Of a DNA stretch of 27,492 nucleotides, positions 6,282-27,492 are shown one piece after another. The DNA is from a virus, in IMG/VR virus record IMGVR_UViG_3300021600_000021, positions 1 to 27,492 of that record. The stretch is one strand, 5' to 3'. The notes beneath the pieces were generated by a model, which had not been told where the DNA came from, ran no database searches, and saw only the letters and a program-made list of their open reading frames with translations. The first letter of the stretch is position 1; every line of letters begins with the position of its first letter. The position numbers were made by a program, and so were the translations under genes.

Positions 6282-6737
6282 ATGGCTGAAGGAAAAACAT
6301 ATGGTATTAATTTCCCTTTTAAAGAATCTTTAAAAGGTAATTATCTTTCGTTGTCGCAAGATAGTGATGAAGAAATTAGAACGGATTTAATTCACTTATT
6401 ATTAACAAGAAAAGGTACGAGATATTATTTACCTGATTTTGGTACACGATTATATGAATATATTTTTGAGCCAATGGATGGACCAACATTTTCTGATATT
6501 GAGGCTGAGATAAGAGATTCTGTTTCAGAATATATTCCTGGAATCACTATCACTAAAATAAGTGTAACTGCCGCGTCTGATGGGGAGGAAGATAAGGGAA
6601 CTTATGTCCAAGGGGATGTAAGAGTTTATAGAGTCCCTGGTATAAGTGAAAAAGAACATACGGCTAAAATTAAAATTGATTATATAATCACAGATTCAGC
6701 ATTTAATCAGAGTGATTTCGTAATCATTAATATTTAA
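6282..6737 (+). CDS. Baseplate wedge protein, gp25/gpW family
   Basis: 151 residues, near the 130-150 typical of T4 gp25 and P2 gpW. The family signature is clear: DEEIRTDLIHLLLTRKGTR (residues 29-47) followed by PDFGTRLYEYIFEP (51-64), with the late EP corresponding to the family's core EPR-type motif. These proteins sit at the centre of each baseplate wedge and start assembly of the contractile sheath. It is directly followed, after six bases, by a gp6/gpJ-like wedge protein, the usual W-J pairing of contractile tails. It is the first gene of the structural operon, behind the terminator and a TATTTAT box. Confidence 0.92.
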   Translation: MAEGKTYGINFPFKESLKGNYLSLSQDSDEEIRTDLIHLLLTRKGTRYYLPDFGTRLYEYIFEPMDGPTFSDIEAEIRDSVSEYIPGITITKISVTAASDGEEDKGTYVQGDVRVYRVPGISEKEHTAKIKIDYIITDSAFNQSDFVIINI

Positions 6738-6743
6738 TAATAT

Positions 6744-8582
6744 ATGGCAAATAAAAAAATATCGTATACGACAAGGGATTTTCAGTCAATAAGAACTGAG
6801 TTAATTAATTTTACCCGAACATATTATCCCGAATTAATTGATAGTTTTAATGATGCGTCAGTTTTTTCAGCGTTATTAGATTTAAACGCCGCGGTTAGTG
6901 ATAATTTACAATTTAATATTGACCGAAGTATTCAGGAAACTGTTTTACAATATGCTCAACAAAGGTCATCAATTTTTAATATCGCCAGAACTTACGGATT
7001 AAAAGTACCGGGCCAAAGACCTTCAGTTGCTTTAGTTGATTTTTCAATTACAGTGCCGGCGTTTGGTGATAAAGAAGATTTAAGATATTGTGGTATATTA
7101 AGAAGAGGGTCGCAAGTCAATGGTGCGGGACAAGTATTTGAAACGGTTTACGATATTGATTTTGCGTCGGCAATTAATGCTGATGGATATCCAAATAGAT
7201 TAAAAATACCTAATTTTGATTCAAATAACAAGTTACTTAATTATACGATTGTAAAAAGAGAAACGGTTGTTAATGGTATTACAAAAGTATATAAAAGAGT
7301 AATGACACCGAATGATGTTAAACCATTCTTTGAAATGTTCTTACCTGAAAAAAATGTTTTAGGTGTTACAAGTGTTTTATTGAAAGATGGGACACAGTAT
7401 GCAAATATGCCTTCCTCACAAGAGTTTTTAGGATTAGATAATAGATGGTATGAAGTTAAAGCATTAATTGAAGATAGAGTATTCATTGAAGACCCTACTA
7501 AAGTCTCTGACCAACCTGGTATTAAAGTTGGGAAATATATTACAACAAGTGATAAGTTTATAACTGAGTTTACTCCTGAAGGTTTTATGAAAATGACTTT
7601 TGGTGGTGGTACTCAATCTGCTGATGAACAATTAAGAGAATTTGCTCGAAATGGTTATAATTTAAATTTGTATAAATACTCAAATAATTTAGCTTTAGGT
7701 AGTACAGTTAAATCGAATACTACGATGTTCATTCAATATAGAATTGGTGGAGGAACGGGAAGTAATTTAGGTGTTAATGTTATAACACAAATAGGTACCG
7801 TGTCTTTCTTTGTTAATGGACCTTCAGATTCGGTTAACACAAGTGTGGTTAATTCATTAAGTTGTACAAATGTAACCGCAGCAATTGGTGGGGCGGCATC
7901 ACCAACAACTGAAGAAGTTAGAAACTTAGTGGCGTTTAATTTTTCCGCACAAAATAGAGCGGTTACAATAAATGATTATGATTCTCTTATTAGAACAATG
8001 CCATCACAATTTGGGGCTCCGGCTAAAGCGGCGATAACTGAAGAAAATAATAAAATTAAAATAAAAATGTTATCTTACGATGATTCAGGTAAACTAACTG
8101 AACTCGTATCAAATACATTAAAAAACAATGTTGCTAATTATCTATCTAACTATAGAATGATTAATGATTATATCTCAATCGAGACTGCAAATGTTATTGA
8201 CTTGGCAATGAATCTTGATGTTGTTTTAGATAATAGTCAAAATCAAGGAGCGGTTATTTCACAGATTATTAATATTGTTTCAACATATTTTGACCCTTCA
8301 AATAGACAGATGGGACAGAATGTTTATATCTCCGAAATTAGAAGACAAATACAAAGTGAGAACGGAGTTATTTCGGTTTCAGGTATTCAAGTTTTTAATA
8401 AAGTTGGTGGGCAATATTCTTCATCACAAACTTCTCAAAAATATTTAAATTCTGAAACTCGAGAAATTGAATTAATTGATGAAACAATTTATGCTGAACC
8501 AAGTCAAACATATCAAGTTAGATTTCCGGGTAAAGACATTAATGTTCGTGTTAAGAATTTAAAAACGGTTAATTTCTCCTGA
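6744..8582 (+). CDS. Baseplate wedge protein, gp6 / gpJ (baseplate J-like) family
   Basis: 612 residues, compared with about 660 in T4 gp6. The N-terminus (residues 1-90) has the gp6-type helical start: TTRDFQSIRTELI, SALLDLNAAVSDNLQFNIDR and QQRSSIFNIARTYGLKVPG. The C-terminal half has the J-family elements TTEEVRNL (about 387-394) and RAVTINDYDSLI (about 405-416), followed by repeated alpha/beta units ending in ISEIRRQIQ near residue 535. In contractile tails this protein dimerises around the gp25-like hub to form the iris-like inner ring that opens on sheath firing. Family assignment is firm; the ring role is taken from the family. Confidence 0.9.
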   Translation: MANKKISYTTRDFQSIRTELINFTRTYYPELIDSFNDASVFSALLDLNAAVSDNLQFNIDRSIQETVLQYAQQRSSIFNIARTYGLKVPGQRPSVALVDFSITVPAFGDKEDLRYCGILRRGSQVNGAGQVFETVYDIDFASAINADGYPNRLKIPNFDSNNKLLNYTIVKRETVVNGITKVYKRVMTPNDVKPFFEMFLPEKNVLGVTSVLLKDGTQYANMPSSQEFLGLDNRWYEVKALIEDRVFIEDPTKVSDQPGIKVGKYITTSDKFITEFTPEGFMKMTFGGGTQSADEQLREFARNGYNLNLYKYSNNLALGSTVKSNTTMFIQYRIGGGTGSNLGVNVITQIGTVSFFVNGPSDSVNTSVVNSLSCTNVTAAIGGAASPTTEEVRNLVAFNFSAQNRAVTINDYDSLIRTMPSQFGAPAKAAITEENNKIKIKMLSYDDSGKLTELVSNTLKNNVANYLSNYRMINDYISIETANVIDLAMNLDVVLDNSQNQGAVISQIINIVSTYFDPSNRQMGQNVYISEIRRQIQSENGVISVSGIQVFNKVGGQYSSSQTSQKYLNSETREIELIDETIYAEPSQTYQVRFPGKDINVRVKNLKTVNFS

Positions 8583-8655: not shown

Positions 8656-11600
8656 ATGTCGAATTCATATAGGATAAGAACTCAAGTAGGTGTAGATAAA
8701 TCAATTAAAGTTTTAATAGACCAAGATTTTGAATATCTTGAAATTTTATCACTTAAAATATTACAGAGTCAAATTTACACAAGACAATGTTCTGATTACG
8801 GAGTTATCATTGGTAGAGTTACGGCTAACGATGGTTTTGGAATACCTAACGCTAAAGTATCGGTGTTTATTCCATTAACAAATGACGACTCTACAAATCC
8901 AATTATTTCCGATTTATATCCCTATAAAACATTATCTGAATTAAACGAGGATGGTTATAGATATAATTTATTACCATATCTACCATCTTATAGTAATCAC
9001 TCACCAACAGGAACTTTTTTTGATAAGAATGATGTTTTAGTTGACCCAACATTAATTGAGGTTTATGACAAATATTTTAAGTATACCGCAAGAACTAATG
9101 ATAGTGGTGATTATATGATATTTGGAGTTCCTACAGGTTCACAAACAATTCATGTTGATATTGACTTATCTGATATTGGGGAGTTCTCTTTATCACCTCA
9201 GGATTTAATTCGTATGGGTATTGCAACTCCCGCACAAGTTGCCGGAACAAAATTTAAGAGTTCAACCAATTTAAATGAGTTACCTCAAATTATTAGTATA
9301 AATCGTATTATTGAAATTGAACCATTATGGGGGCAACCTGAGGTATGTAATTTAGGTGTAACACGAACAGATTTTGATTTAACGGATGAAGCCAATATTA
9401 CAATAACTCCAACCTCAATTTTTATGGGGTCTATTTTTTCATCTAATGATGACCAATTCCAAAAGAGAAACTGTAAACCAAAATTAAAACAAGGTAGTTT
9501 ATGTAATTTAGTTGCAGGTCCCGGTGAAATTTTAGCAATAAGACAAACAATCGCTCAAGATGTTAGTGGAAAACCTATATTAGAAACGGTATCATTAGAA
9601 GGTGGAGGACAAGTTATTGATGAGAATGGAACTTGGTTAGTTGATGTCCCAATGAACTTGGATTACATTATAACAAACGAATTTGGTGAAAGAGTATTAT
9701 CTAATGACCCTAAGAAAGGAATACCTACAAAAGGAAAATATAGATTTAAAGTAAAATGGAATCAATCACCATCATTAAGTGAGGCAGTCAAACGAGGGTA
9801 TTTTTTAGTTCCAAATATTAGAGAATATGGGTGGACAGTTGGTGGTAGTGACCCACTTAAATCTCCATTTACTAATTATTCTACTGCAATTAAAACTTAT
9901 GCGTTTAGTTTAGATTGGAATGATTACGCTGACCCACAATCGGCCATTAATTGTGAAGACACCTTTTACGAAATGTTATATAATAAAGTGTATACTGTGT
10001 CACAAATGATTGACCAATATAGACAAGGGTATCTTCCTAATAGAATGATAACTGTGAAAAATATATTGGACGATTCTTGTGAAAGTGATACAGTTAAGTT
10101 TCCAACAAATGATTCGGTATTAAGATTTGACATTATATATCTTTTATTTGTTATTATAATGTTTAGTATAAAACCTACAATAATCCTATTACTAATAGTT
10201 TCACATATTTTAGCGTTTTTATTAAAGTTTATTTTAGGACCAATTTTAGCCATACAAGTGGCGGTTGTTTTTACCATAGTTATTATACTTTGTAATATTG
10301 TGAAAGCAATTACCGACGCAATAAATTCATTACCTGGTATTAATGTGGGTGGGCCTAGTAGTTGCCCTACTTTTACCGACATGCAATCATTGGTTAATGA
10401 CATGTTAAATTTGTGGAAATTATTTACTCACTTACGATTACCTAATTTATCATACCCCGATTGTGAATTATGTGCCTGTAAAGAAGGTGATACGGTTGAA
10501 GGAGATGCTCCTGGAGATTCACCAGTTCCTGTTGACACTGAAGCCATTATCGCAACATCAGGGATTAATGGAATTCTATCACAATACTCTCAATCAACAA
10601 ACTATAATAATAGTCTTTTACCATCGACATTAACCTATCCTGGAGCTTTTACCGCAATGATGGCGGGGTTACCAATTAGTACTAATAGTCCTACTTCACA
10701 ATCTTTAGTTCCTCAATTACAGGGTTATGGGACAGACAATGGAGGAGATAGACATATGTTTACATCAAGTCTTACTTTAGATGAAAGAATAAATTTATTT
10801 AATAATAAGGCAAAATATTTTGAAGATTTTGGAGGTTTAAATCCTGGTGGTGGTTATAATAGAATTAAGGTAACATTTAATACGGGATTAAATAATCCTA
10901 CTACTAAATATCATTACGATAATGTTGTGGTTATCTCATGTCGTGAAAGTCAATTAGCTAGTTTTCCTGCGGGACAATTAATTTCATTTCAAGACCCAGG
11001 ATTATCGATGGATAAGAATTTGACAGGGTTTACTTCATTAAATCAATTTGGGACTGCGAGTATTACGGGAACTTCAATTAATGACGCTCCGGGTAGTACT
11101 ATAACTATCGACTATTCAAATCCTTTTACACCGACAGGGTTACCGGTTCAGACTACGGTATATCAAATAACAGGAAATACTGATGACGCATCATACGCAA
11201 AATTTGCTATGGATACCGAATATTTCCAAGTTATTACTGCAATGACTTATAATATTTTTTCAGGGTCTTGTAATCCATCAGCGAGTGATTTAAGTTTAAA
11301 TAAAAGATATTTGTTTAATAATATGTCTTTTACATATTTGTCTAGTGATAATTGTTCGGGACAATTGACTCAACCATTATCATATAATCCGTTATCGATA
11401 TTCACAGATGCGAATAAACAAGTTATTGTAATACTTGTAAGGGGAGTTGACCCGTATTCATCTAGATGTCAAAATAGATATGACTTAAGTGTGTTATTTG
11501 GTAATTCATTAGGAACAAATATTGTTACGGGGTCATACAAATTAAATCATCCTATTAAAGGAGGGATACAATCGGTAAGACATACTATGAACGCTAATGT

Positions 11601-13737
11601 AATGAATACGGATACATTTGGTAATCATTTATATTACGACTCTTTTCACTTCCAACCATCGTTAATAGGACCGGCATCGTATAGTGCGTTTACATCAAAT
11701 TTACCTAGTTATTATTCTTCACTTGATAATAGTAATTCGGCATTTACTCCTTCAGGAGCTCCACCATTATCAACTGCGTGTCAGACAAATTATGGTGCAT
11801 CATCGATAAAACCATTCAATGGGTTTACATTAAAATGGGGGGTTAATCCAATTCCGGTATTTGGATGTACATATAGTTCTCCAATTAATAGTGGTGTGAT
11901 ATCATCTACTAATGTTTATTCTACAGATACTCAAGGATATTTTGTTAATGAAATTGTTGATGGAGGTTCTGTTATGTTGCAACAACTTTCAATCCCTGTT
12001 GGTACGGTTACGACACCTACTGTTACGGGATATTATTACGCGCCTAGATATTCAGGAGTTTACGCATATCCGGTTGGATTGGGAACAAGTGGTAGACAAA
12101 TTATTATGAGGTCAGATAGATTACCAACATCTACTTTAACTCTTGATACTGCCGGTAACAGTTATGCTTTACAACAAAACTCTAATTTTTCCGCATACCA
12201 AATTAGTGATGATGGAACAGTTGCAAACACTGCGGGAATTGTAAGTAATTCACCATCAGCGGCTGAAGGTGGTGATGAGCCATTAAGTTCGTCTAGTCTT
12301 GATAACTCTGTTTTAGATACCTTTAGTTGTGGTAGTATGATACCTTTAGGTTGTTATAATGATATTCCTACGGGAAAATTTCACTATTATCCAAAGCCTG
12401 ATGCCTGTTATGAGAATGGAACGTCTAATCATGAAATAATTATGGAAAACGGATGTTATATTTTCATAACAAAAATTTTCTCATCTTTAGGTAAAGATAT
12501 TAAACTAATTGCTGAGTGGTCTTCAAGAATTCAAATTACTTTTGGAGCTTGTCGAGATGTTTGGTCGCATATTTTTACAAACAATTGGATTAATGGTACA
12601 TTATATGCCTTTGCAATTAAGAATGATAGATTTTTTACGTCACCAGTTGTATCACCGACAAATCCTATACCAAATAGACCTTATAGTTTGTATTGTAGGG
12701 ACACCGTTGTTTTACACCCAACAAATAATTTTTACTATAGAAGTAGTCCTTGGGACGGTACTAAATTTATTGGAGCAAATCCACCAACAGGTGTTTTTGG
12801 TTCTTATGGTGGAAATGATAAAAACTTAAAAACTCCAACAACTATCATGGATTTAGGACCTAGAAGTCAATATCTTCAAGAGATTGTTATGTCGGATGAA
12901 TATGATGGGTATGTAGTTAATAAAATGGGGGCAACAACTTTTACCGATGTATCCGAAATATTAAATTTATTTATTATTAGTCGATTAGCAAATACAGGGT
13001 TTTTAGCTTTATTATTGGGGGCTGGTGGAGGGAATATTCTTTCATATTTTGATAAACGAAGTAAACGATTTGTTGATGCTGATTACGCTCAAATGTTATC
13101 TATTAGTTCAGAATTAGGTATTTCCGATTTTGAACCGGCAAACTACCCACCAATTACCGGAGCTCAAGACCCTATTTATTTTAATGGTAATGGAACTTCG
13201 GATGGGATTATAGGTATTTTCTTTTCATCTGACACACAAGTAAGAGATTTTATTACACCTAAAAGAACTATTATTGATGATACTGCAATGGTTACCGATA
13301 CTTGTGCGTTTAACTATTTTAATGTTTTTACACAAGCGGTTCCTTTTTATCAATGGGAAGTAAAAGAAGGACTTCCAGATAGTATTTTTGGGTCACAAAG
13401 TAATGATTGGTATACTAACCCATTATCTAATGGAGAATTTTTTACTTACAAATATCAGAATTTAGATAGAATTGACCAAAATTCAAGATACTTTAGAACA
13501 AATGGTAGTACTGAAATAAAAGATTATAAGGGTTATATATATTCTGTGGATAGTTTAGGGGATTATAATCCTATTTCTGGTTCGCAAGACCCTAATACTA
13601 TTTCTTTTAGTAATCCTAATAGTAGGGTAATTACTGTTGGAGCACCGTTCCACTTTTATTTTGGACTTAAAAAGGGTAAAACGGCATTTGACAGATTTGC
13701 AATTAAATGGATAGGATTTGAAACAATAACAGATTAA
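8656..13737 (+). CDS. Giant virion structural protein, 1693 aa, with internal hydrophobic segments (function unknown)
   Basis: The longest gene in the window; I do not recognise it as a whole. The N-terminus (about 50-170) looks like a carboxypeptidase-regulatory-type beta-sandwich: GRVTANDGFGIPNAKVSVFIP, then TNDSGDYMIFGVPTGSQTIHVD. Residues 490-556 are strikingly hydrophobic and could form two or three membrane helices (about 491-504, 507-529, 531-549). C570 and the cluster C603, C606, C608 follow. The region 620-1400 is Ser/Thr/Asn/Gly-rich, as in beta-structured fibre or baseplate proteins. A second hydrophobic stretch, FLALLLGAGGGNIL, lies near 1450. Position after the gp25-gp6 pair suggests a baseplate or tail-tip protein; T4 has gp7 here, but I see no sequence resemblance. 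The hydrophobic part could be a membrane-contacting tip or a buried trimer core. Confidence 0.8.
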   Translation: MSNSYRIRTQVGVDKSIKVLIDQDFEYLEILSLKILQSQIYTRQCSDYGVIIGRVTANDGFGIPNAKVSVFIPLTNDDSTNPIISDLYPYKTLSELNEDGYRYNLLPYLPSYSNHSPTGTFFDKNDVLVDPTLIEVYDKYFKYTARTNDSGDYMIFGVPTGSQTIHVDIDLSDIGEFSLSPQDLIRMGIATPAQVAGTKFKSSTNLNELPQIISINRIIEIEPLWGQPEVCNLGVTRTDFDLTDEANITITPTSIFMGSIFSSNDDQFQKRNCKPKLKQGSLCNLVAGPGEILAIRQTIAQDVSGKPILETVSLEGGGQVIDENGTWLVDVPMNLDYIITNEFGERVLSNDPKKGIPTKGKYRFKVKWNQSPSLSEAVKRGYFLVPNIREYGWTVGGSDPLKSPFTNYSTAIKTYAFSLDWNDYADPQSAINCEDTFYEMLYNKVYTVSQMIDQYRQGYLPNRMITVKNILDDSCESDTVKFPTNDSVLRFDIIYLLFVIIMFSIKPTIILLLIVSHILAFLLKFILGPILAIQVAVVFTIVIILCNIVKAITDAINSLPGINVGGPSSCPTFTDMQSLVNDMLNLWKLFTHLRLPNLSYPDCELCACKEGDTVEGDAPGDSPVPVDTEAIIATSGINGILSQYSQSTNYNNSLLPSTLTYPGAFTAMMAGLPISTNSPTSQSLVPQLQGYGTDNGGDRHMFTSSLTLDERINLFNNKAKYFEDFGGLNPGGGYNRIKVTFNTGLNNPTTKYHYDNVVVISCRESQLASFPAGQLISFQDPGLSMDKNLTGFTSLNQFGTASITGTSINDAPGSTITIDYSNPFTPTGLPVQTTVYQITGNTDDASYAKFAMDTEYFQVITAMTYNIFSGSCNPSASDLSLNKRYLFNNMSFTYLSSDNCSGQLTQPLSYNPLSIFTDANKQVIVILVRGVDPYSSRCQNRYDLSVLFGNSLGTNIVTGSYKLNHPIKGGIQSVRHTMNANVMNTDTFGNHLYYDSFHFQPSLIGPASYSAFTSNLPSYYSSLDNSNSAFTPSGAPPLSTACQTNYGASSIKPFNGFTLKWGVNPIPVFGCTYSSPINSGVISSTNVYSTDTQGYFVNEIVDGGSVMLQQLSIPVGTVTTPTVTGYYYAPRYSGVYAYPVGLGTSGRQIIMRSDRLPTSTLTLDTAGNSYALQQNSNFSAYQISDDGTVANTAGIVSNSPSAAEGGDEPLSSSSLDNSVLDTFSCGSMIPLGCYNDIPTGKFHYYPKPDACYENGTSNHEIIMENGCYIFITKIFSSLGKDIKLIAEWSSRIQITFGACRDVWSHIFTNNWINGTLYAFAIKNDRFFTSPVVSPTNPIPNRPYSLYCRDTVVLHPTNNFYYRSSPWDGTKFIGANPPTGVFGSYGGNDKNLKTPTTIMDLGPRSQYLQEIVMSDEYDGYVVNKMGATTFTDVSEILNLFIISRLANTGFLALLLGAGGGNILSYFDKRSKRFVDADYAQMLSISSELGISDFEPANYPPITGAQDPIYFNGNGTSDGIIGIFFSSDTQVRDFITPKRTIIDDTAMVTDTCAFNYFNVFTQAVPFYQWEVKEGLPDSIFGSQSNDWYTNPLSNGEFFTYKYQNLDRIDQNSRYFRTNGSTEIKDYKGYIYSVDSLGDYNPISGSQDPNTISFSNPNSRVITVGAPFHFYFGLKKGKTAFDRFAIKWIGFETITD

Positions 13738-17538: not shown

Positions 17539-18477
17539 ATGAATAATGAAGACTATATTAAAACTTGTTCTAATTGTGGAGGATTACAATCTTATACTAC
17601 TAAAAATAGGTTAAAATGTTCTATCCGAGAAAATTGGAAGTGTAATAATTGCTCTTCAACTCATATGAAAAAAATATATAGTGATGAGGTTGTTAATGAG
17701 GTGGTTAAATTATATAAAAATGGGGTTAGTTATAGTGAGGTGTGTATGATAATGAATATTGGTCGTAAAAATGTTAAAACTATTTTGATTGAAAAAAATG
17801 TTTGGATTAAAAATAGAAATAAAATTAAAAAAGAGTTTAGTGTTGATGATATTGAAACCATAATTAAAAAATATAACAAAGGGTTATCGGTGAAAAAAAT
17901 TTCGATAGAATTTAATGTTAGTGTTGGCCCGATTAAAAGAATTTTAAAAGAAAAAAATATATTAAGGAAAGGTCGTAGTAATGGTGTTAAAATTAACTTA
18001 TCTGAAGAACAAATTAGTTTAATTAAAAGGTTGTATTTGGATGATTATAAAAATAGTGAAGAAATTGGTTGTCAGTTAGGCTTAACAAAATCTTTTATAG
18101 ATAAATATTTGGGATTAACAATGTATCGTAGAAATATGAGTGAGGGGAACTCGGTTGGTACTGTAAAAAGATTTAGAGGAATATCATACAACAAATACTT
18201 AAATATTAAAGATGATTATAAGAAATATAAAAATGATGTTATGAAGGTAACAAGACAACAATCTATTAATCAATTACCTAATTATGAAAAAAGAAATAAT
18301 TCTGGTGTTGACGGGGCGTATCAGTTAGACCATAAATATTCAATTATAGAAGGATTTAAAAATAATATATCACCTGAAATTATTGGGGGAATTAAAAATT
18401 TGGAGTTTATTCCTTGGGAAGAAAACATTAAAAAAAGAACTAAATGTTCAATAACAATAAATGAATTAATACTATAA
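17539..18477 (+). CDS. Free-standing HNH homing endonuclease (putative)
   Basis: 312 residues. An N-terminal zinc-ribbon-like unit has C10-x2-C13 and C35-x2-C38. Three helix-turn-helix-like repeats follow at about 48-89 (LYKNGVSYSEVCMIMNIGRKNV), 101-140 (YNKGLSVKKISIEFNVSVGPI) and 155-195. The C-terminal nuclease signature is LDHKYSI (D264, H265), then KNLEFIPWEENIKK with N287 and N296, the D/H...N...N layout of HNH enzymes. DNA-reading repeats joined to an HNH cleavage domain are typical of phage homing endonucleases. It is visibly more A/T- and Lys-rich than its neighbours and splits two structural genes that otherwise sit in a tightly packed operon. It is intact, with no stop or missing catalytic residue, so it may still be active. 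Confidence 0.85.
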   Translation: MNNEDYIKTCSNCGGLQSYTTKNRLKCSIRENWKCNNCSSTHMKKIYSDEVVNEVVKLYKNGVSYSEVCMIMNIGRKNVKTILIEKNVWIKNRNKIKKEFSVDDIETIIKKYNKGLSVKKISIEFNVSVGPIKRILKEKNILRKGRSNGVKINLSEEQISLIKRLYLDDYKNSEEIGCQLGLTKSFIDKYLGLTMYRRNMSEGNSVGTVKRFRGISYNKYLNIKDDYKKYKNDVMKVTRQQSINQLPNYEKRNNSGVDGAYQLDHKYSIIEGFKNNISPEIIGGIKNLEFIPWEENIKKRTKCSITINELIL

Positions 18478-22300: not shown

Positions 22301-22409
22301 AACGACAACTGATACTGTAATATTATCTAATCAAGTATGTTCAGTATCGGAACTAGGAATCAATTTTAAATTGAATGTTGGAATAAACTTTAATATTTTA
22401 TGTAATTAA
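19389..22409 (+). CDS. Large baseplate protein with gpI/gp7-like wedge segment, 1006 aa
   Basis: Residues about 384-480 resemble the P2 gpI / phage tail protein I fold of contractile baseplates: SQLLKNLAQTLGW, then YYRNLILNSAFLFKSKGTRKSIEILMRLIGAP. The KGT-(x)-SIEILMRLIG element is the most telling part. In simple contractile tails gpI follows gpW and gpJ and bridges the wedge to the fibres, the place of T4 gp7. Here it lies about 11 kb beyond the W-J pair. Residues about 725-840 (FFEFAQTFWLNTINVRNRQF; IRLVEQMVPATTIW) look structured, and a Cys-rich stretch near 842-872 (EGCQLMRVPCKPCS, SHDCPLETVECP) may bind metal or form cross-links. The start overlaps the previous stop and the stop overlaps the next start. 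The gpI similarity is by eye. Confidence 0.7.
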   Translation: MATKKYTCPPQSATGAGTFSDNLVGLQLVAGGGLTQGNFEFTSSANEKTNRSFSTGTFSSPINLDSLGIETINQSKTIVENNFKVYPNFDLTQVTNFTMYGSMVKRMSASITTIISYFPGALEATYLGTNYVAGPTANNIIYDITNNETSFELDLSRLRNPFDVDFTTNSTRNLQLKEIQVSPLRDMTVEYAKYSLYYNGVGYNVLGIVPTTSLTSGTLKLYVYGDPFSGNTFSEDDLVIRPNDLEVNKVFNENLDEVENFLLNRNVSPKYTATFKVPQESEDGTYYIQNTNITWPLYGEWNIDIITKSFVTYITTINDISESFDLYRTNLVSRFLTTGAFKEFDTSDHKVEKVLQLYGKSFDDVKKYITALSYMTSVNYNVGNDIPSQLLKNLAQTLGWNTNISPISETELLTSVFGTTNNNASVYPGISQQQTPDELNYQYYRNLILNSAFLFKSKGTRKSIEILMRLIGAPEALVEFNEYVYLADQRINLNQFDTQFSQISGGTYLQQIPILEPGNIFSIFGTTYTGFTTTGDIQDVNITIDEYPMDENGYPTTPVNSESYFFQMGSGWFEQTPQHRAPENVDLTNSVFVGNNPNYQTVLLPYSYGQEYLNRYRKFPFMNLGYTLRETIDNNKSWVDTEVGIRTNLDGSFNARYYVSDDRLVLNVKNVDLFLNPAQGIAYDIWYMSQQYNYPIPNEGLNYVTPTACDPKPYSPYPSRGGVDWTEINPQPKRKTFFEFAQTFWLNTINVRNRQFSSNGKTGGYPTLESIFWNYLQSNETVGIPNDNFSYKTMLEYVNGLGDYWIRLVEQMVPATTIWNTGVRLENSIFHRQKFVWRRQEGCQLMRVPCKPCSITSNLFSHDCPLETVECPVYPWTNHPTITNFNGVLGQLMTNYLVANGFNLSDCDFNGMTSEWFVDLMIDDVTVVSYSFFDGIGYSSPIYSVPTIAEWNSALLIGLESLKDYGYNYYLTTTDTVILSNQVCSVSELGINFKLNVGINFNILCN

Positions 22410-24793
22410 TGGGGTGTACTTTATCAAATACTATAAGTGTAACAGGTGACTGTTTAAATAATTTATCAGGGGCATTTAGTCTTGATATTACGGGAAGCGC
22501 TCCTGATTATACAATACAATGGATTAGTCCTTATACGACAACAATACCATTAGGGTCTGGTATAACTAATTTTTATCAATCGGGTTTATCCGCAGGAACT
22601 TACACTTTTAATATAATTGATAGTTGTGGGCCACCTAATACTATATATCCTGTTAATATCTATATCTCAACAGGTACTTGTGTCAGTTTAATAAGTGAAA
22701 TAAATACTTTATGTGGTTTAGATAATGGGTCGTTAACGGCTTCAACGTCTAACTTATATGGAACCGCTAGTTTTTATTTATACGAAATGTCATCAGGGTA
22801 TATTACTTCGGGTGTAAGTTTTAGTTCTTCATATGCTTTTGGAAGTTTATCGGCAGGGACTTATTATGTCGTAGCAAATGATGGTGGTGGATGTACGGGT
22901 AAATCTGAAACATGTATCATTAAAGATTCTGTTCCACTTGAAATTGGATTATATACTGTGAATGATGCCGGTTGTGCGGTTAATTCAGGTTCTATACATA
23001 TTACAGGATTAACAGGAACACCGCCTTACACTTATTTATGGGGTCCTAATGGAGAAACAACTCAATCAATAACAGGTTTAACCGCAGGACCGTATACAAT
23101 TACTGTGACCGATGGTTCGGGGTGTGTACAAAGTAGTGGAGTTACCGTAACAACAGTTGCACATGTAGGGATAGGAGCGTTTACTGTTGTAAATCCATCT
23201 TGTTTTTCATCTGATGGTGAAGTAACGGTGATAATAACCGGAGGGACCGCACCTTATTATTATTCAGGGTCAAATGGGTCAGTTGCCGTTAGTTTTGCTA
23301 CAACGCATACTTTTACGGGTCTTGCGTCAGGAATTTTTTCTGTACAAGTAACGGATGCGGGATTATGTAATTTTACTTCATCGACTTCATTATTAACACC
23401 TGGAGGACTTTCAGTAACCTCGGTAAATATTACAAATTCAACTTGTAATGATAGTTCAGCCAAAATTAAAGTAGTTATTTATGGAGGGTCTGCTCCGTAC
23501 ACGTACACATTAACTGACTCATTAAGTAATTCTACAGTAATTACAGGAAGTTTTACAACATGGACGTTTAATGGATTATCTTCGGGTGATTATGTTTTAA
23601 CAATATCTGATATGGGTACATGTGTGTATACTCACACTTATACGATAGATAATGTTGTTTTATTTGATTTATCAGTTGATACTACAGGAACTACATGTAA
23701 TCTGAATGAGGGGGCGGCAACTTTGACTATTACTACAGGAGGAACCGGTCCATATCAGTTTGAAATTGATGGACAGTCAACAATCATAAGTGATTTATCA
23801 TACACTTTTACCAATTTATCTTCGGGTAATTATACGGCAACTGTTACGGATTCAAATGGTTGCGCTCAAGTGTTACCATTCACTATTAATGATTCTGGTT
23901 CGGTTGATTTTGTTTTAGTTGGGTCTGATTCAACTAACGGAACTAATGGTTCTATAACTACATTTATAACAAGTGGGGAACCACCATTTACTTTAAATTG
24001 GAGTTTAAATGTTGGAGGGCAAACAGGTTTAACCGTTAATAGTTTATCGGCAGGAACGTATACTTTAACCGTTATTGATAATAATGGATGTTCACAAACA
24101 AGAAGTATAACTATCAATGGGTTCAATGTTTTATCGTCATATCAAACATTTAATATTTGTAATGATGATTTTATGAACACAGGTCAAACTATTAGAAAAG
24201 GTCCTCAACAAATGGTAACGGAGGGATTTTATGATTTAACTAGCGGTGATACTAATTGTCTTTTACAACAAACAATTTTTACTGCGCTGGTAACCGTTAG
24301 TGGGAATACTCTAACACAATCTTTTTACACTGGTACAACATTAACGGACTTTCCTTCGGATAGTTCATTTTATGATGTTGTGAAAGAACTTTTATTATCG
24401 TATGATGGGGTTGGGCAAGTTCTTTTGGATTATTTAGATAATAAAATAACAATTAATACTGATTGTAATTCAAACGTGTCTTTAATTGATGCTGACGTTA
24501 ATATTTCTTTAAAAATATCTTATGACATTGATTGTCAAAGTTGTGGGCCCGCAATTACGCCAACACCTACACCAACTCCAACACCAACACCACCCTCGGC
24601 ACCATGTTTTACATACTCGTTGACGGTTTATGTGGGAACCCCTGTCGAATTTTTATTTAATGGTTGTTGCGCTAATTTAGGTTTAAATAGTCTTAGTATT
24701 TCTAATACCTCCCAAACAATATGTTCAACTATCTTACCAACAACAACTGGAGAGGGGTTTGTTCAATTAATCGGGGGATGTTCTTCGTGTTAG
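22409..24793 (+). CDS. Tail fibre/adhesin with seven SprB-like repeats, 794 aa
   Basis: Residues 15-561 contain seven tandem beta-sandwich units of the SprB type, each with the frame C....G.....I.GG.PPYT...L.SG.Y...V.D..GC (15-73, 102-162, 189-239, 265-320, 346-405, 430-485, 509-561). SprB is the surface adhesin of Flavobacterium gliding, and such repeats are common on Bacteroidota surface proteins. An unrecognised domain with an EGFYDL motif and scattered Cys follows (about 572-712). A six-fold Thr-Pro linker (717-728) leads to a C-terminal Cys-rich module (CFTYSL, GCCANLG, ending CSSC). The start overlaps the wedge gene by one base (TAATG), so the product is probably made with the baseplate and mounted on it. 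Host receptor binding is inferred. Confidence 0.85.
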   Translation: MGCTLSNTISVTGDCLNNLSGAFSLDITGSAPDYTIQWISPYTTTIPLGSGITNFYQSGLSAGTYTFNIIDSCGPPNTIYPVNIYISTGTCVSLISEINTLCGLDNGSLTASTSNLYGTASFYLYEMSSGYITSGVSFSSSYAFGSLSAGTYYVVANDGGGCTGKSETCIIKDSVPLEIGLYTVNDAGCAVNSGSIHITGLTGTPPYTYLWGPNGETTQSITGLTAGPYTITVTDGSGCVQSSGVTVTTVAHVGIGAFTVVNPSCFSSDGEVTVIITGGTAPYYYSGSNGSVAVSFATTHTFTGLASGIFSVQVTDAGLCNFTSSTSLLTPGGLSVTSVNITNSTCNDSSAKIKVVIYGGSAPYTYTLTDSLSNSTVITGSFTTWTFNGLSSGDYVLTISDMGTCVYTHTYTIDNVVLFDLSVDTTGTTCNLNEGAATLTITTGGTGPYQFEIDGQSTIISDLSYTFTNLSSGNYTATVTDSNGCAQVLPFTINDSGSVDFVLVGSDSTNGTNGSITTFITSGEPPFTLNWSLNVGGQTGLTVNSLSAGTYTLTVIDNNGCSQTRSITINGFNVLSSYQTFNICNDDFMNTGQTIRKGPQQMVTEGFYDLTSGDTNCLLQQTIFTALVTVSGNTLTQSFYTGTTLTDFPSDSSFYDVVKELLLSYDGVGQVLLDYLDNKITINTDCNSNVSLIDADVNISLKISYDIDCQSCGPAITPTPTPTPTPTPPSAPCFTYSLTVYVGTPVEFLFNGCCANLGLNSLSISNTSQTICSTILPTTTGEGFVQLIGGCSSC
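22451..24091 (+). repeat. Seven tandem SprB-like protein repeats
   Basis: The units are 50-60 codons each and are delimited by cysteines. They diverge at the nucleotide level, so this is an old domain array rather than a recent DNA duplication. Units 3 and 6 are closest to the family consensus; unit 2 is the most degenerate, and unit 7 lacks the opening Cys. Confidence 0.75.
24557..24592 (+). repeat. Thr-Pro codon repeat (flexible linker)
   Basis: Six ACN-CCN codon pairs encode (TP)6 between the unrecognised domain and the C-terminal Cys-rich module of the SprB-repeat protein. Near-identical hexanucleotide units make slippage in copy number possible. Confidence 0.85.
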
Positions 24794-24827: not shown

Positions 24828-25157
24828 ATGGAAAATAATTACCCAAAAATTTTATATAAATCACAAGTTAGAGAATATAAAGGTTATTTAAAATCGTTTT
24901 ATGATTTACCTGAAGATATACAAGAGAATTTTAAAAAAATTAAAATATATCTTGAAAAATATTTTGATAAAAAAATTCCAGTATTTGTTTGGGGTAGTTA
25001 TTTACGAGGTACTTGGGGAGAAACGTCAGATTATGATGTGATAATTTTAGAACCCGTAACAGATAAAACTTTAATTCCAAATATACGAAAAGAATTAAAT
25101 ATAAAAGTTGATATTTTTACTAATGACGGTAAGGAGAATGTTATCGAAATCCCATAA
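24828..25157 (+). CDS. Orphan minimal nucleotidyltransferase (MNT / Pol-beta superfamily), 109 aa
   Basis: The motif VFVWGSYLRGTWGETSDYDV (residues 52-71) gives the superfamily hG-S...D-x-D signature with G56-S57, D68 and D70. A third acidic residue, D95 in IKVDIF, completes the catalytic triad on the expected next strand. Such proteins transfer nucleotide monophosphates to proteins, RNA or small molecules; the stand-alone bacterial version (MntA) AMPylates and silences a HEPN RNase toxin. No HEPN-like gene is adjacent, and the 104 bases downstream encode nothing. The start follows A/T-rich leader AATTAAATAAGAT. It sits between two adhesin genes but is not overlapped with either, so it is more likely an accessory (moron-type) gene than a virion part. 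The substrate is unknown. Confidence 0.8.
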   Translation: MENNYPKILYKSQVREYKGYLKSFYDLPEDIQENFKKIKIYLEKYFDKKIPVFVWGSYLRGTWGETSDYDVIILEPVTDKTLIPNIRKELNIKVDIFTNDGKENVIEIP

Positions 25158-25261
25158 TTATAAAATACTTTATTTTTTAATTAACTTACCTTAAAGACTT
25201 ATTAGTTTAAGTGTTTTAATTTTCATTAAATATAGTTTGACTCACCATTTATTAAGATTAA
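25158..25261 (+). promoter_or_regulatory. 104-base non-coding gap ahead of the glycosyltransferase
   Basis: Very A/T-rich and without coding potential. A TATAGTTTGAC at 25234-25244 resembles the Bacteroidota -7 element (TAnnTTTG) but with one extra base, so a host-type promoter for the glycosyltransferase is possible. A weak 6-bp inverted repeat (CTTAAA at 25190-25195, TTTAAG at 25206-25211) has no T-run and is not called a terminator. Confidence 0.3.
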
Positions 25262-26266
25262 ATGTTTAATATATTTAAAACAAAGTCTACTATGAAACAT
25301 GATTTAGTATTTGTTACGGCTCAACCTGATGTCCCATATTTTCATTGGCAAGTCAAAGTGTATTCATATAATTTTATTGAAATGGGTATCAACCCTAATC
25401 AAATTCATGTGATTTTTTCTATGGTTAATGGAGTTACGGAACCTACTAAGGAATCGTTAGAACTTAAATCAATGGGAATAAACGTTCACCATTATTTAGA
25501 TAATAGACATCAAAAACATTATATTCCTAATATCAAACCGTATTTAATTCATAAATGGTTAGAACAATTTCCTGAATTTGGAAAATGTTTTTTCCTACAT
25601 GATGCTGATATTATTTTTAGGAAATTACCTGACTTTGAAACATTATTATCGGATGACATAACTTACTTGTCAGACACGGTTGGGTACATTGGTTACAATT
25701 ACATTAATGATTGTTGTGATAGATATGAAAAACATCATCCTACATCTAGTAAAGGACAATTAATTCAGGAAATGGTTGAAGTTGTTGGTATCTCAGTTGA
25801 GTGTATTAAATGTAATCAAGAAAATTCTGGTGGTGGTCAATATATTATAAAAAATACTGATTCATTTATGTGGAATAAAATTTATGAGGATTGTACTCCT
25901 CTATATGACCAAATGAAAAGTTATCAAAGAAGATTCCCAATAAGTCCTGGGGAGATACAGTTTTGGACTGCTGAGATGTGGTCTTTATTATGGAACCTTT
26001 GGTTGTTTGGAATTGAGACAAAAATAACGGATGAATTAAATTTTTCATGGGCAACTGATGATTTAAAAATTTATGAAAAAAGACCTATATTACATATGGC
26101 GGGAGTGACACAAGATTTAAAAGATACTAAATTTTATAAGGGTGAGTTTATCAATATTAGCCCTTTAATTAAGTTAAAAGAAAATATTAATTATTTTGAT
26201 TTTGTTGATGAGAACAGTTCAACCATAAAATATATTGAGATAATGAAAAGGATTGTAAAAAAATAA
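25262..26266 (+). CDS. Putative GT-A-type glycosyltransferase, 334 aa
   Basis: A HDAD motif at 113-116 (FFLHDADIIFRKL) is the DxD metal/nucleotide-sugar site of GT-A enzymes. Other marked segments are VTAQPDVPYFHWQVKVYSYN (18-37), YIPNIKPYLIHKWLEQFP (87-104), a Trp-rich acceptor-like stretch EIQFWTAEMWSLLWNLWLFG (near 232-251) and a late LHMAG (near 272). The layout, especially the WQ near the N-terminus and the late AEMW, reminds me of plant hydroxyproline and serine glycosyltransferases, but this is memory and not a search. A second possible start is M11. It is flanked by Thr/Pro-linker adhesins, so it may decorate these, or modify host surface glycans or phage DNA. The fold call is moderate and the acceptor unknown. 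Confidence 0.7.
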   Translation: MFNIFKTKSTMKHDLVFVTAQPDVPYFHWQVKVYSYNFIEMGINPNQIHVIFSMVNGVTEPTKESLELKSMGINVHHYLDNRHQKHYIPNIKPYLIHKWLEQFPEFGKCFFLHDADIIFRKLPDFETLLSDDITYLSDTVGYIGYNYINDCCDRYEKHHPTSSKGQLIQEMVEVVGISVECIKCNQENSGGGQYIIKNTDSFMWNKIYEDCTPLYDQMKSYQRRFPISPGEIQFWTAEMWSLLWNLWLFGIETKITDELNFSWATDDLKIYEKRPILHMAGVTQDLKDTKFYKGEFINISPLIKLKENINYFDFVDENSSTIKYIEIMKRIVKK

Positions 26267-26337: not shown

Positions 26338-27492
26338 ATGATTTGTACATTGTACCAACTACATAATTTCACCATATCTTCTCAAGTCCAGAGTTTTACT
26401 GACTGTAATGGTAATATATGCAGTGTAACGGTTAATGTTAATTCTAATTATTTTATAACTGCAGACTCAACTAGTTTTACTGCAAATCCTTCATTAACTA
26501 TAGAAAGTTTCAATATTGACAGAGCATTTTCATTTAGTAGTTGTTGTTCTAATGATGTTTTTCATATATTAGGTAAATACGGACAAACATTTAATGTAGG
26601 TGATTTAGGTAGAAGTATTTGTGTAACAGAAATAACAAACATATCTGATTGCTCAATTAATACCACATTAGATGAAAATTGTTATACCTTTGTTAGTATC
26701 GACGCAAACTATGCGAACGCTTTAGGAAACCAAGTTTATTTACAATATACTAGCGCGTTCATAAATTGTAATAGTTGTTTTGCAAGTTGTCTTCCTTGTG
26801 CTACAACTACAACAACTGTCGCCCCTACAACTACTACTACTACTATTGCTCCTACAACTACAACAACTACAACCGTAGAACCTACTTGTATAATAACAGG
26901 AATAAGTGATTGTAGTGTAATAACCATATTTCAAATGGGGGTTCAATGTTTAGTATCACATCCCACTGAACCTAATTCTACTGATGGAATTGCTTCATTA
27001 TTAATTACGGGTGGAACTCCACCGTATGTTGTTACTTGGTCGAATGGTAGTATCGGTTCAATTATTTATAATTTAAGTGCCGGCTCCTATGGGGCAACAG
27101 TAATTGATTATTATGGTGATTTTACCGCCAACACTACTTGTGTTTTGACAGGTGTAACACCGACAACGACTACAACTAGTACTACTACAACTTCACCATT
27201 TCCTACTGAATATGAGTTGTGTTTAACTACCAATATTTTAACAAGAGGAAGTTATGTTGAAACTCAAACACATTTTAACCCTGATGTAATATATAATGGA
27301 AAACCATCATGGATTTCTGATGATAGTCAACAGTCAATTATTTGGAATTCTTCACTATTACAGTGGGAAGTGTCCGCCTCAACACCAACATTGTATGTTA
27401 TAACAAATTTAAATCCGACATATCCTCCAATTTATGGTAGTTGGAATTTAATAGGTGCAACTGGTAGTGTTATTGTAAATGAAGGTCTTTGT
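26338..27492 (+). CDS. Adhesin/tail fibre with Thr-rich linkers and a SprB-like module, 3'-truncated
   Basis: The frame opens at the ATG at 26338 and has no stop to the end of the window: 385 codons, incomplete at the 3' end. Layout: a Cys-rich N-terminal module (1-154) with CTLYQL, FTDCNGN and SSCC; a linker (156-183) of three Thr runs split by VAP, IAP and VEP; one SprB-like unit (about 204-268) with ITGGTPPYVVTWSNG and NLSAGSYGATVID; a second Thr linker (274-287); and the start of a third domain with a Trp-rich stretch. Poly-Thr hinges joining beta modules are typical of long fibres. It lies behind the glycosyltransferase gene, so O-linked sugars on the Thr runs are conceivable. Receptor binding is inferred from the shared module with the protein at 22409. 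Confidence 0.85.
   Translation, partial: MICTLYQLHNFTISSQVQSFTDCNGNICSVTVNVNSNYFITADSTSFTANPSLTIESFNIDRAFSFSSCCSNDVFHILGKYGQTFNVGDLGRSICVTEITNISDCSINTTLDENCYTFVSIDANYANALGNQVYLQYTSAFINCNSCFASCLPCATTTTTVAPTTTTTTIAPTTTTTTTVEPTCIITGISDCSVITIFQMGVQCLVSHPTEPNSTDGIASLLITGGTPPYVVTWSNGSIGSIIYNLSAGSYGATVIDYYGDFTANTTCVLTGVTPTTTTTSTTTTSPFPTEYELCLTTNILTRGSYVETQTHFNPDVIYNGKPSWISDDSQQSIIWNSSLLQWEVSASTPTLYVITNLNPTYPPIYGSWNLIGATGSVIVNEGLC
26803..26886 (+). repeat. Poly-Thr linker with APTTTTTT units
   Basis: ACN codon runs of five, six and seven threonines are separated by V-A-P, I-A-P and V-E-P. The ACA/ACT triplets give a trinucleotide repeat prone to slippage. The reverse strand of this tract has an open frame rich in Val or Ser/Cys, which is an artefact of the repeat and not a gene. 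Confidence 0.85.
27157..27198 (+). repeat. Second Thr-rich linker
   Basis: A 14-codon tract, T-P then five Thr, Ser, four Thr, Ser-Pro, closes the SprB-like module and leads to the next domain. It is shorter than the first linker and interrupted by an AGT serine codon. Confidence 0.8.

Follow-up and report, generated by a model that had tools for sequence, protein, structure and literature searches.

The closest published parallel to the phage protein described here is the BACON tandem-repeat tail protein of crAssphage, which is built from an Ig-like domain common to Bacteroidetes surface proteins (PMC6949934). In crAss-like phages the BACON arrays are associated with the tail, have a poorly conserved C-terminus and are distinct from the bacterial domains, and the BACON repeats of Bacteroidetes are described as linkers with no carbohydrate binding of their own (PMC6949934). 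However, both the domain family and the phage lineage differ from those of our protein, which carries seven units of the SprB type. SprB proper is exported by the type IX secretion system (T9SS), whereas the protein studied here has neither a T9SS signal nor a signal peptide; it also differs from the T9SS adhesins in its fixed, small number of units and in being encoded in a phage baseplate operon. The neck whisker Wac of E. coli phage RB43 has one SprB unit above the cut-off (41.9 bits); RB43-like Wac, unlike our protein, is a fibritin with other Ig domains, an Escherichia host and a neck position. Finally, a 714 aa protein of an uncultured Caudovirales phage (A0A6J5LD72, 'SprB repeat'; BFVD/UniProt) matches our protein structurally over its full length (E=1.3e-64, 33% identity) and apparently has the same core. 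Unlike our protein, it is nearly tipless as judged by its length, and it bears a domain label only; we found no published function for it in the literature.

We analysed a stretch of viral DNA of 27,492 nucleotides (IMG/VR record IMGVR_UViG_3300021600_000021, positions 1 to 27,492), hereafter called the window, in which one gene had been predicted from the sequence to encode a phage tail protein made of seven SprB-type gliding-adhesin repeats and to lie in a structural operon (Table 1). The operon setting is supported by the gp25 (PF04965) and baseplate-J/gp6 (PF04865) genes found upstream; baseplate wedge proteins, among them that of Flavobacterium phage immuto, align with the gp6 homologue over 91% or more of the latter's length at 24–29% identity. 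The stop codon of the gene immediately upstream overlaps the start codon of the seven-unit gene (TAATG). In the 1006-aa protein that it encodes, hhalign matched residues ~253–483 to the large protein of the baseplate operon in immuto, Microcystis phage Mel-JY01 and LR756508 with a probability of 86–92%, and the profile match of this one domain makes the 1006-aa protein a probable baseplate wedge protein. Over its last ~110 residues it is homologous to the module that follows the seven units (95.7%, E=9.5e-9; hhalign), and the order of helices and strands is identical in the models of the two. The model of the 1006-aa protein has a mean pLDDT of 40 and is poor outside the C-terminal domain and some short stretches, and a fold search with it gave no significant match; a tblastn comparison of the protein with phage records gave none either.

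Table 1. Features of the seven-unit gene and of its operon, with coordinates in the window
Feature	Position	Strand	Evidence or remark
Baseplate wedge gp25 homologue	6282..6737	+	PF04965 E=1.5e-12
Baseplate wedge gp6 / baseplate J homologue	6744..8582	+	PF04865 E=1.8e-7
Probable baseplate wedge protein, 1006 aa	19389..22409	+	Domain match to phage baseplate-operon proteins
Seven-unit SprB-repeat tail protein, 794 aa	22409..24793	+	ATG 22409, stop 24791-24793; PF13573 E=4.8e-22
Unit 1, residues 1-91, divergent	22409..22681	+	Units 3-7 profile; modelled beta-sandwich; no SprB match of its own in Pfam
Unit 2, residues 92-178, Ig_7-like	22682..22942	+	Ig_7 E=4.6e-4; units 3-7 profile; modelled beta-sandwich
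Unit 3, residues 179-254, SprB	22943..23170	+	PF13573 25.3 bits
Unit 4, residues 255-335, SprB	23171..23413	+	PF13573 39.5 bits
Unit 5, residues 336-420, SprB	23414..23668	+	PF13573 34.7 bits
Unit 6, residues 421-497, SprB	23669..23899	+	PF13573 22.6 bits
Unit 7, residues 498-573, divergent, first Cys absent	23900..24127	+	Own clade, support 77; modelled beta-sandwich; no SprB match of its own
C-terminal alpha/beta module, residues 574-712, order H-E-E-H-E-E-E	24128..24544	+	hhalign; model; common to the wedge protein
Pro-Thr hinge, TPTPTPTPTPTPP	24545..24604	+	Sequence; 6-base tandem repeat 24560-24592; low model confidence
Tip, ~62-residue Cys-rich domain	24605..24790	+	Unrelated domain instead, or none, in relatives
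Fibre-like gene, runs off the window end	26338..27492	+	One further SprB-like unit 26977-27051; Thr-rich linkers

The SprB-like unit in the downstream fibre-like gene scored 18.2 bits against PF13573, which is below the cut-off, and 38 bits against a profile of the phage units. Between the two fibre genes (24828–26266) lie a small gene with a nucleotidyltransferase domain (NTP_transf_2, E=6.5e-8) and a 334-aa gene without assignment, and an HNH/HTH homing-endonuclease-like gene (17539–18477) is inserted within the baseplate operon. Also upstream of the seven-unit gene are genes for a 5'-3' exonuclease, a DnaB helicase and a ribonucleotide reductase, as well as several undescribed genes. A 1693-aa baseplate-operon protein (8656–13737) contains a strongly hydrophobic, transmembrane-like stretch of ~60 residues (residues ~490–555) that is conserved across relatives; such a stretch is unusual in tail proteins and might insert in the host membrane. 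The start of a protein from another locus (L162:3115-7452) resembles that of the 1693-aa protein, but here six C-terminal SprB units are grafted on this other baseplate-operon protein.

Membership of the units in the SprB family was borne out by Pfam, where the 794-aa protein as a whole reached 77.7 bits against PF13573 (cut-off 28) with four stretches matched; 24 of 24 homologues tested also matched SprB, and the search did not place the units in an unrelated Ig-like family. When the units were searched singly, units 3 to 6 matched the family, units 4 and 5 above the cut-off, and unit 2 gave a weak match to the related family Ig_7 ('CHU_C associated'). Units 1, 2 and 7 gave no match to PF13573 by themselves, so that not every unit is recognised as SprB on its own, a stricter demand than that of Pfam. 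The motif given in the original prediction likewise fits units 3–6 best. However, a profile built from positions 3–7 only recovered seven units in every intact homologue, and units 1 and 2 were thus recognised although they are absent from the model. In an AlphaFold2 model based on a 24-sequence alignment, residues 1–570 form seven consecutive beta-sandwiches with a local pLDDT of mostly 80–90, whose last strands lie at residues 79–86, 163–171, 240–247, 321–328, 406–413, 486–493 and 562–569, followed by a separate alpha/beta domain. Units 1 and 7, despite being outliers in sequence, fold like the others, and the profile and the model thus bear out the predicted number of seven units. The alpha/beta module, the Pro-Thr hinge and the variable tip that come after them did not figure in the prediction. 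Both framing cysteines are kept in 36 of 49 phage core units and in 68 of 81 bacterial units, and the conserved pair in most units suggests that disulfides may form in this cytoplasmically made protein. With 27 Cys (3.4%) and only 10 Lys/Arg among its 794 residues, it contrasts with most other proteins of the window.

IMG/VR scans gave 26 loci with the seven-unit protein as query and 33 loci with its wedge neighbour. Seven units were found in all 53 distinct full-length homologues (40–100% identity), in which the core measures 696–723 aa. Since full-length alignment was the criterion for this set and could have concealed homologues with a different number of units, loci selected by the wedge gene were also counted, and here seven core units were present in each of the 22 whose downstream array gene is intact; an eighth unit occurs in L055, inside the tip. 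Next to the distant wedge homologues (L057 and L061, 41–43%; L062–L064, 29–31%) no such array was found in the adjoining DNA covered, and it therefore seems that the array belongs to one lineage. As 65 of the best 80 viral loci in a scan with a generic SprB consensus were this seven-unit protein, it is usable as a marker for the phage group, some contigs of which exceed 300 kb.

The part that follows the core, on the other hand, varies between 0 and 589 aa across the 53 homologues and is also variable in fold. The window protein shares 83% of its core with that of L035, yet the tips are unrelated, while L036, which is more distant (about 70%), has a tip that resembles that of the window. Over 231 pairs, the mean alignment score per aa was 0.48 for the tip versus 2.74 for the core. 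Strong matches among the tip domains are to DUF285 and FISUMP, and weak ones to beta-propeller, CBM-like and Hint-like families. Six of the 53 homologues are essentially tipless (0–5 aa), and the tip is therefore not indispensable. A constant stalk with an exchanged tip reads as a spacer bearing a receptor-binding end, and the family has both the conserved base and variable distal end of a phage tail fibre and a position in the baseplate operon, downstream of gp25, gp6 and the wedge-like gene. We consider it likely, with a probability of about 0.7, that the seven-unit protein is a baseplate-attached tail fibre, or adhesion arm, with a fixed-length stalk and an exchangeable receptor-binding tip. 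The seven SprB-type Ig domains would form the stalk and act as a spacer, the alpha/beta module homologous to the wedge C-terminus would probably dock or oligomerise the fibre, and the Pro-Thr hinge would present the C-terminal tip, which would contact the host surface; incorporation into the virion, attachment to the baseplate and receptor binding by the tip are steps that we infer. Such a fibre would be a noteworthy variation on a type already known from phages.

The matches of the units among known proteins would also allow another location, in which the protein decorates the head or forms a neck whisker (Hoc-, pb10- or Wac-like) and sticks weakly to surfaces through Ig beads placed on the capsid or neck. 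The PHROG families that match best are labelled 'virion structural' and 'Hoc-like head decoration', and among PDB structures the unit profile matches a neck whisker (9occ, E=1.1e-7), the decoration proteins 5lxk and 8zvi, and the T9SS adhesins RemZ (8gl8, E=1e-5) and GhpA; the SprB unit in RB43 Wac points the same way. However, the overlap of the start codon with the stop of the probable wedge gene, downstream of the gp25–gp6 block, the C-terminal module common to the seven-unit and wedge proteins, and the large exchangeable ends, which are a trait of fibres, make a head or neck location unlikely. The top PDB structural matches of the whole protein are pieces of GhpA, the grappling hook of Aureispira (9flp, 9fly and 9flw); TM scores are low, as flexible arrays do not superpose, and the likeness is claimed for the fold of the single domains only.

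The duplication that gave rise to the array is old, since the units of the window protein are only 17–35% identical to one another and no tandem repeat is seen at the DNA level. Across phages, each of the seven positions forms its own clade (support 77–98), and the array therefore predates the radiation of the group and has not been shuffled since. Mean identity is 46–60% between orthologous units and 31% between units within one protein, and the stalk is under purifying selection (dN/dS about 0.10–0.17). Each window unit is 42–52% identical to its best bacterial unit, versus 37–52% for other phage positions. When all 49 phage core units were placed in one clade, the tree scored 37.6 log units above a quick free tree (p-AU 0.80), in an alignment whose 79 columns are too few for deep order and with a free-tree search that was poor, as the better score of the one-clade tree shows. 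A single origin of the phage core units would be allowed by these trees, and a direction of transfer between phage and bacterial units is something that we would infer. The beads of the stalk probably share ancestry with the repeats of T9SS-secreted adhesins of Bacteroidota, but would serve in the phage as a spacer.

The original prediction went further and proposed that the repeats may imitate modules of the host adhesin so as to bind surface polysaccharide or the gliding machinery. In such a reading, the repeats as such would attach to glycans of the host surface or to gliding adhesins, by mimicry or by homotypic contact. The SprB profile match and the identity of the window units to their best Bacteroidota counterparts are consistent with this, and the literature considers SprB and RemA as candidate phage receptors in Flavobacteriia (PMC13288928), and gliding proteins likewise for flavobacterial phages (PMC7345892). 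However, unit number and length are fixed, dN/dS is low and the diversity sits in the tips; the module after the units is common to the neighbouring wedge protein, a unit of this type also occurs in RB43 of E. coli, and the analogous BACON Ig-like beads are described as linkers without carbohydrate binding of their own (PMC6949934). We therefore regard binding by the repeats as improbable. Neither mimicry of the gliding machinery nor binding to it appears to be indicated by these data, and it seems more improbable still that virions travel along the gliding cell to an injection site through contact of the SprB-type stalk with the T9SS track or with mobile surface adhesins of the host.

Even less probable, in our judgement, is that the protein acts outside the virion as a secreted, host-modifying adhesin which the T9SS would display on infected cells. 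Although such proteins exist on other phage-labelled records (LR756502), no T9SS sorting domain was found in the window protein by NCBIfam, nor CHU_C or Por_Secre_tail by Pfam, and its N-terminus (MGCTLSNTISVTGDC), as read from the sequence, has no hydrophobic signal peptide. Weak sorting-domain scores in the relatives L050 and L055 lie within the repeats, and the gene sits in the baseplate operon.

Proteins of a secretion type are found elsewhere. The 642-kb uncultured phage record LR756502.1 encodes a 1670-aa protein (L152:13804-18816) that starts with a signal-peptide-like stretch, carries 13 SprB units, PKD and a CHU_C T9SS signal (E=5e-14), and is apparently meant for export by the type IX system of the host; two more CHU_C matches lie on the same record (418085–418297 and 597571–597774). 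At a second locus (L164:5011-7470), an SprB-repeat protein whose start resembles a signal peptide and which carries a CHU_C T9SS signal is encoded between tail-sheath/tube and baseplate-hub genes, and proteins matching it in length and layout are present in L184, L185 and L187. With its two sheath genes, the L164 locus may belong to a contractile injection system instead of a phage.

The repeat had also been taken as a hint of the host. The closest cellular relatives of the units are Bacteroidota proteins in 76 of 79 genome loci, and sites resembling Shine-Dalgarno sequences are nearly lacking (0 of 15 genes in the window and 2% of 82 genes in the family), from which the phage group likely infects Bacteroidota. 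This part of the hint stands, but it does not follow from the repeat alone, since the whisker of RB43, which infects E. coli, has an SprB unit, and since the unit profile matches solved structures of phage whisker and decoration proteins as well as of T9SS adhesins; nor are repeats of this type limited to phages of non-Bacteroidota hosts. Flavobacterium phage immuto is among the phage isolates nearest in gp6 and DnaB (26–27% identity), as is, at a similar level, a Microcystis phage. No relative of the seven-unit protein was found in GTDB genomes and no tRNA that could give a clue to the host was found in the loci tested. A Bacteroidota promoter motif was set aside as host evidence, its enrichment being slight and uneven, and phrog_2 was dropped as a phage marker, as it matched most control genomes.

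The label 'SprB repeat' on a phage protein should accordingly not be read as a sign of a gliding adhesin, and the secretion-type SprB proteins of LR756502.1 and L164 would be where to look for a genuine connection of phages with T9SS adhesins. The exchange of tips marks the probable seat of host range, and a widespread set of uncultured phages appears to have turned a repeat of the bacterial-adhesin type into a fixed fibre stalk whose length does not vary.
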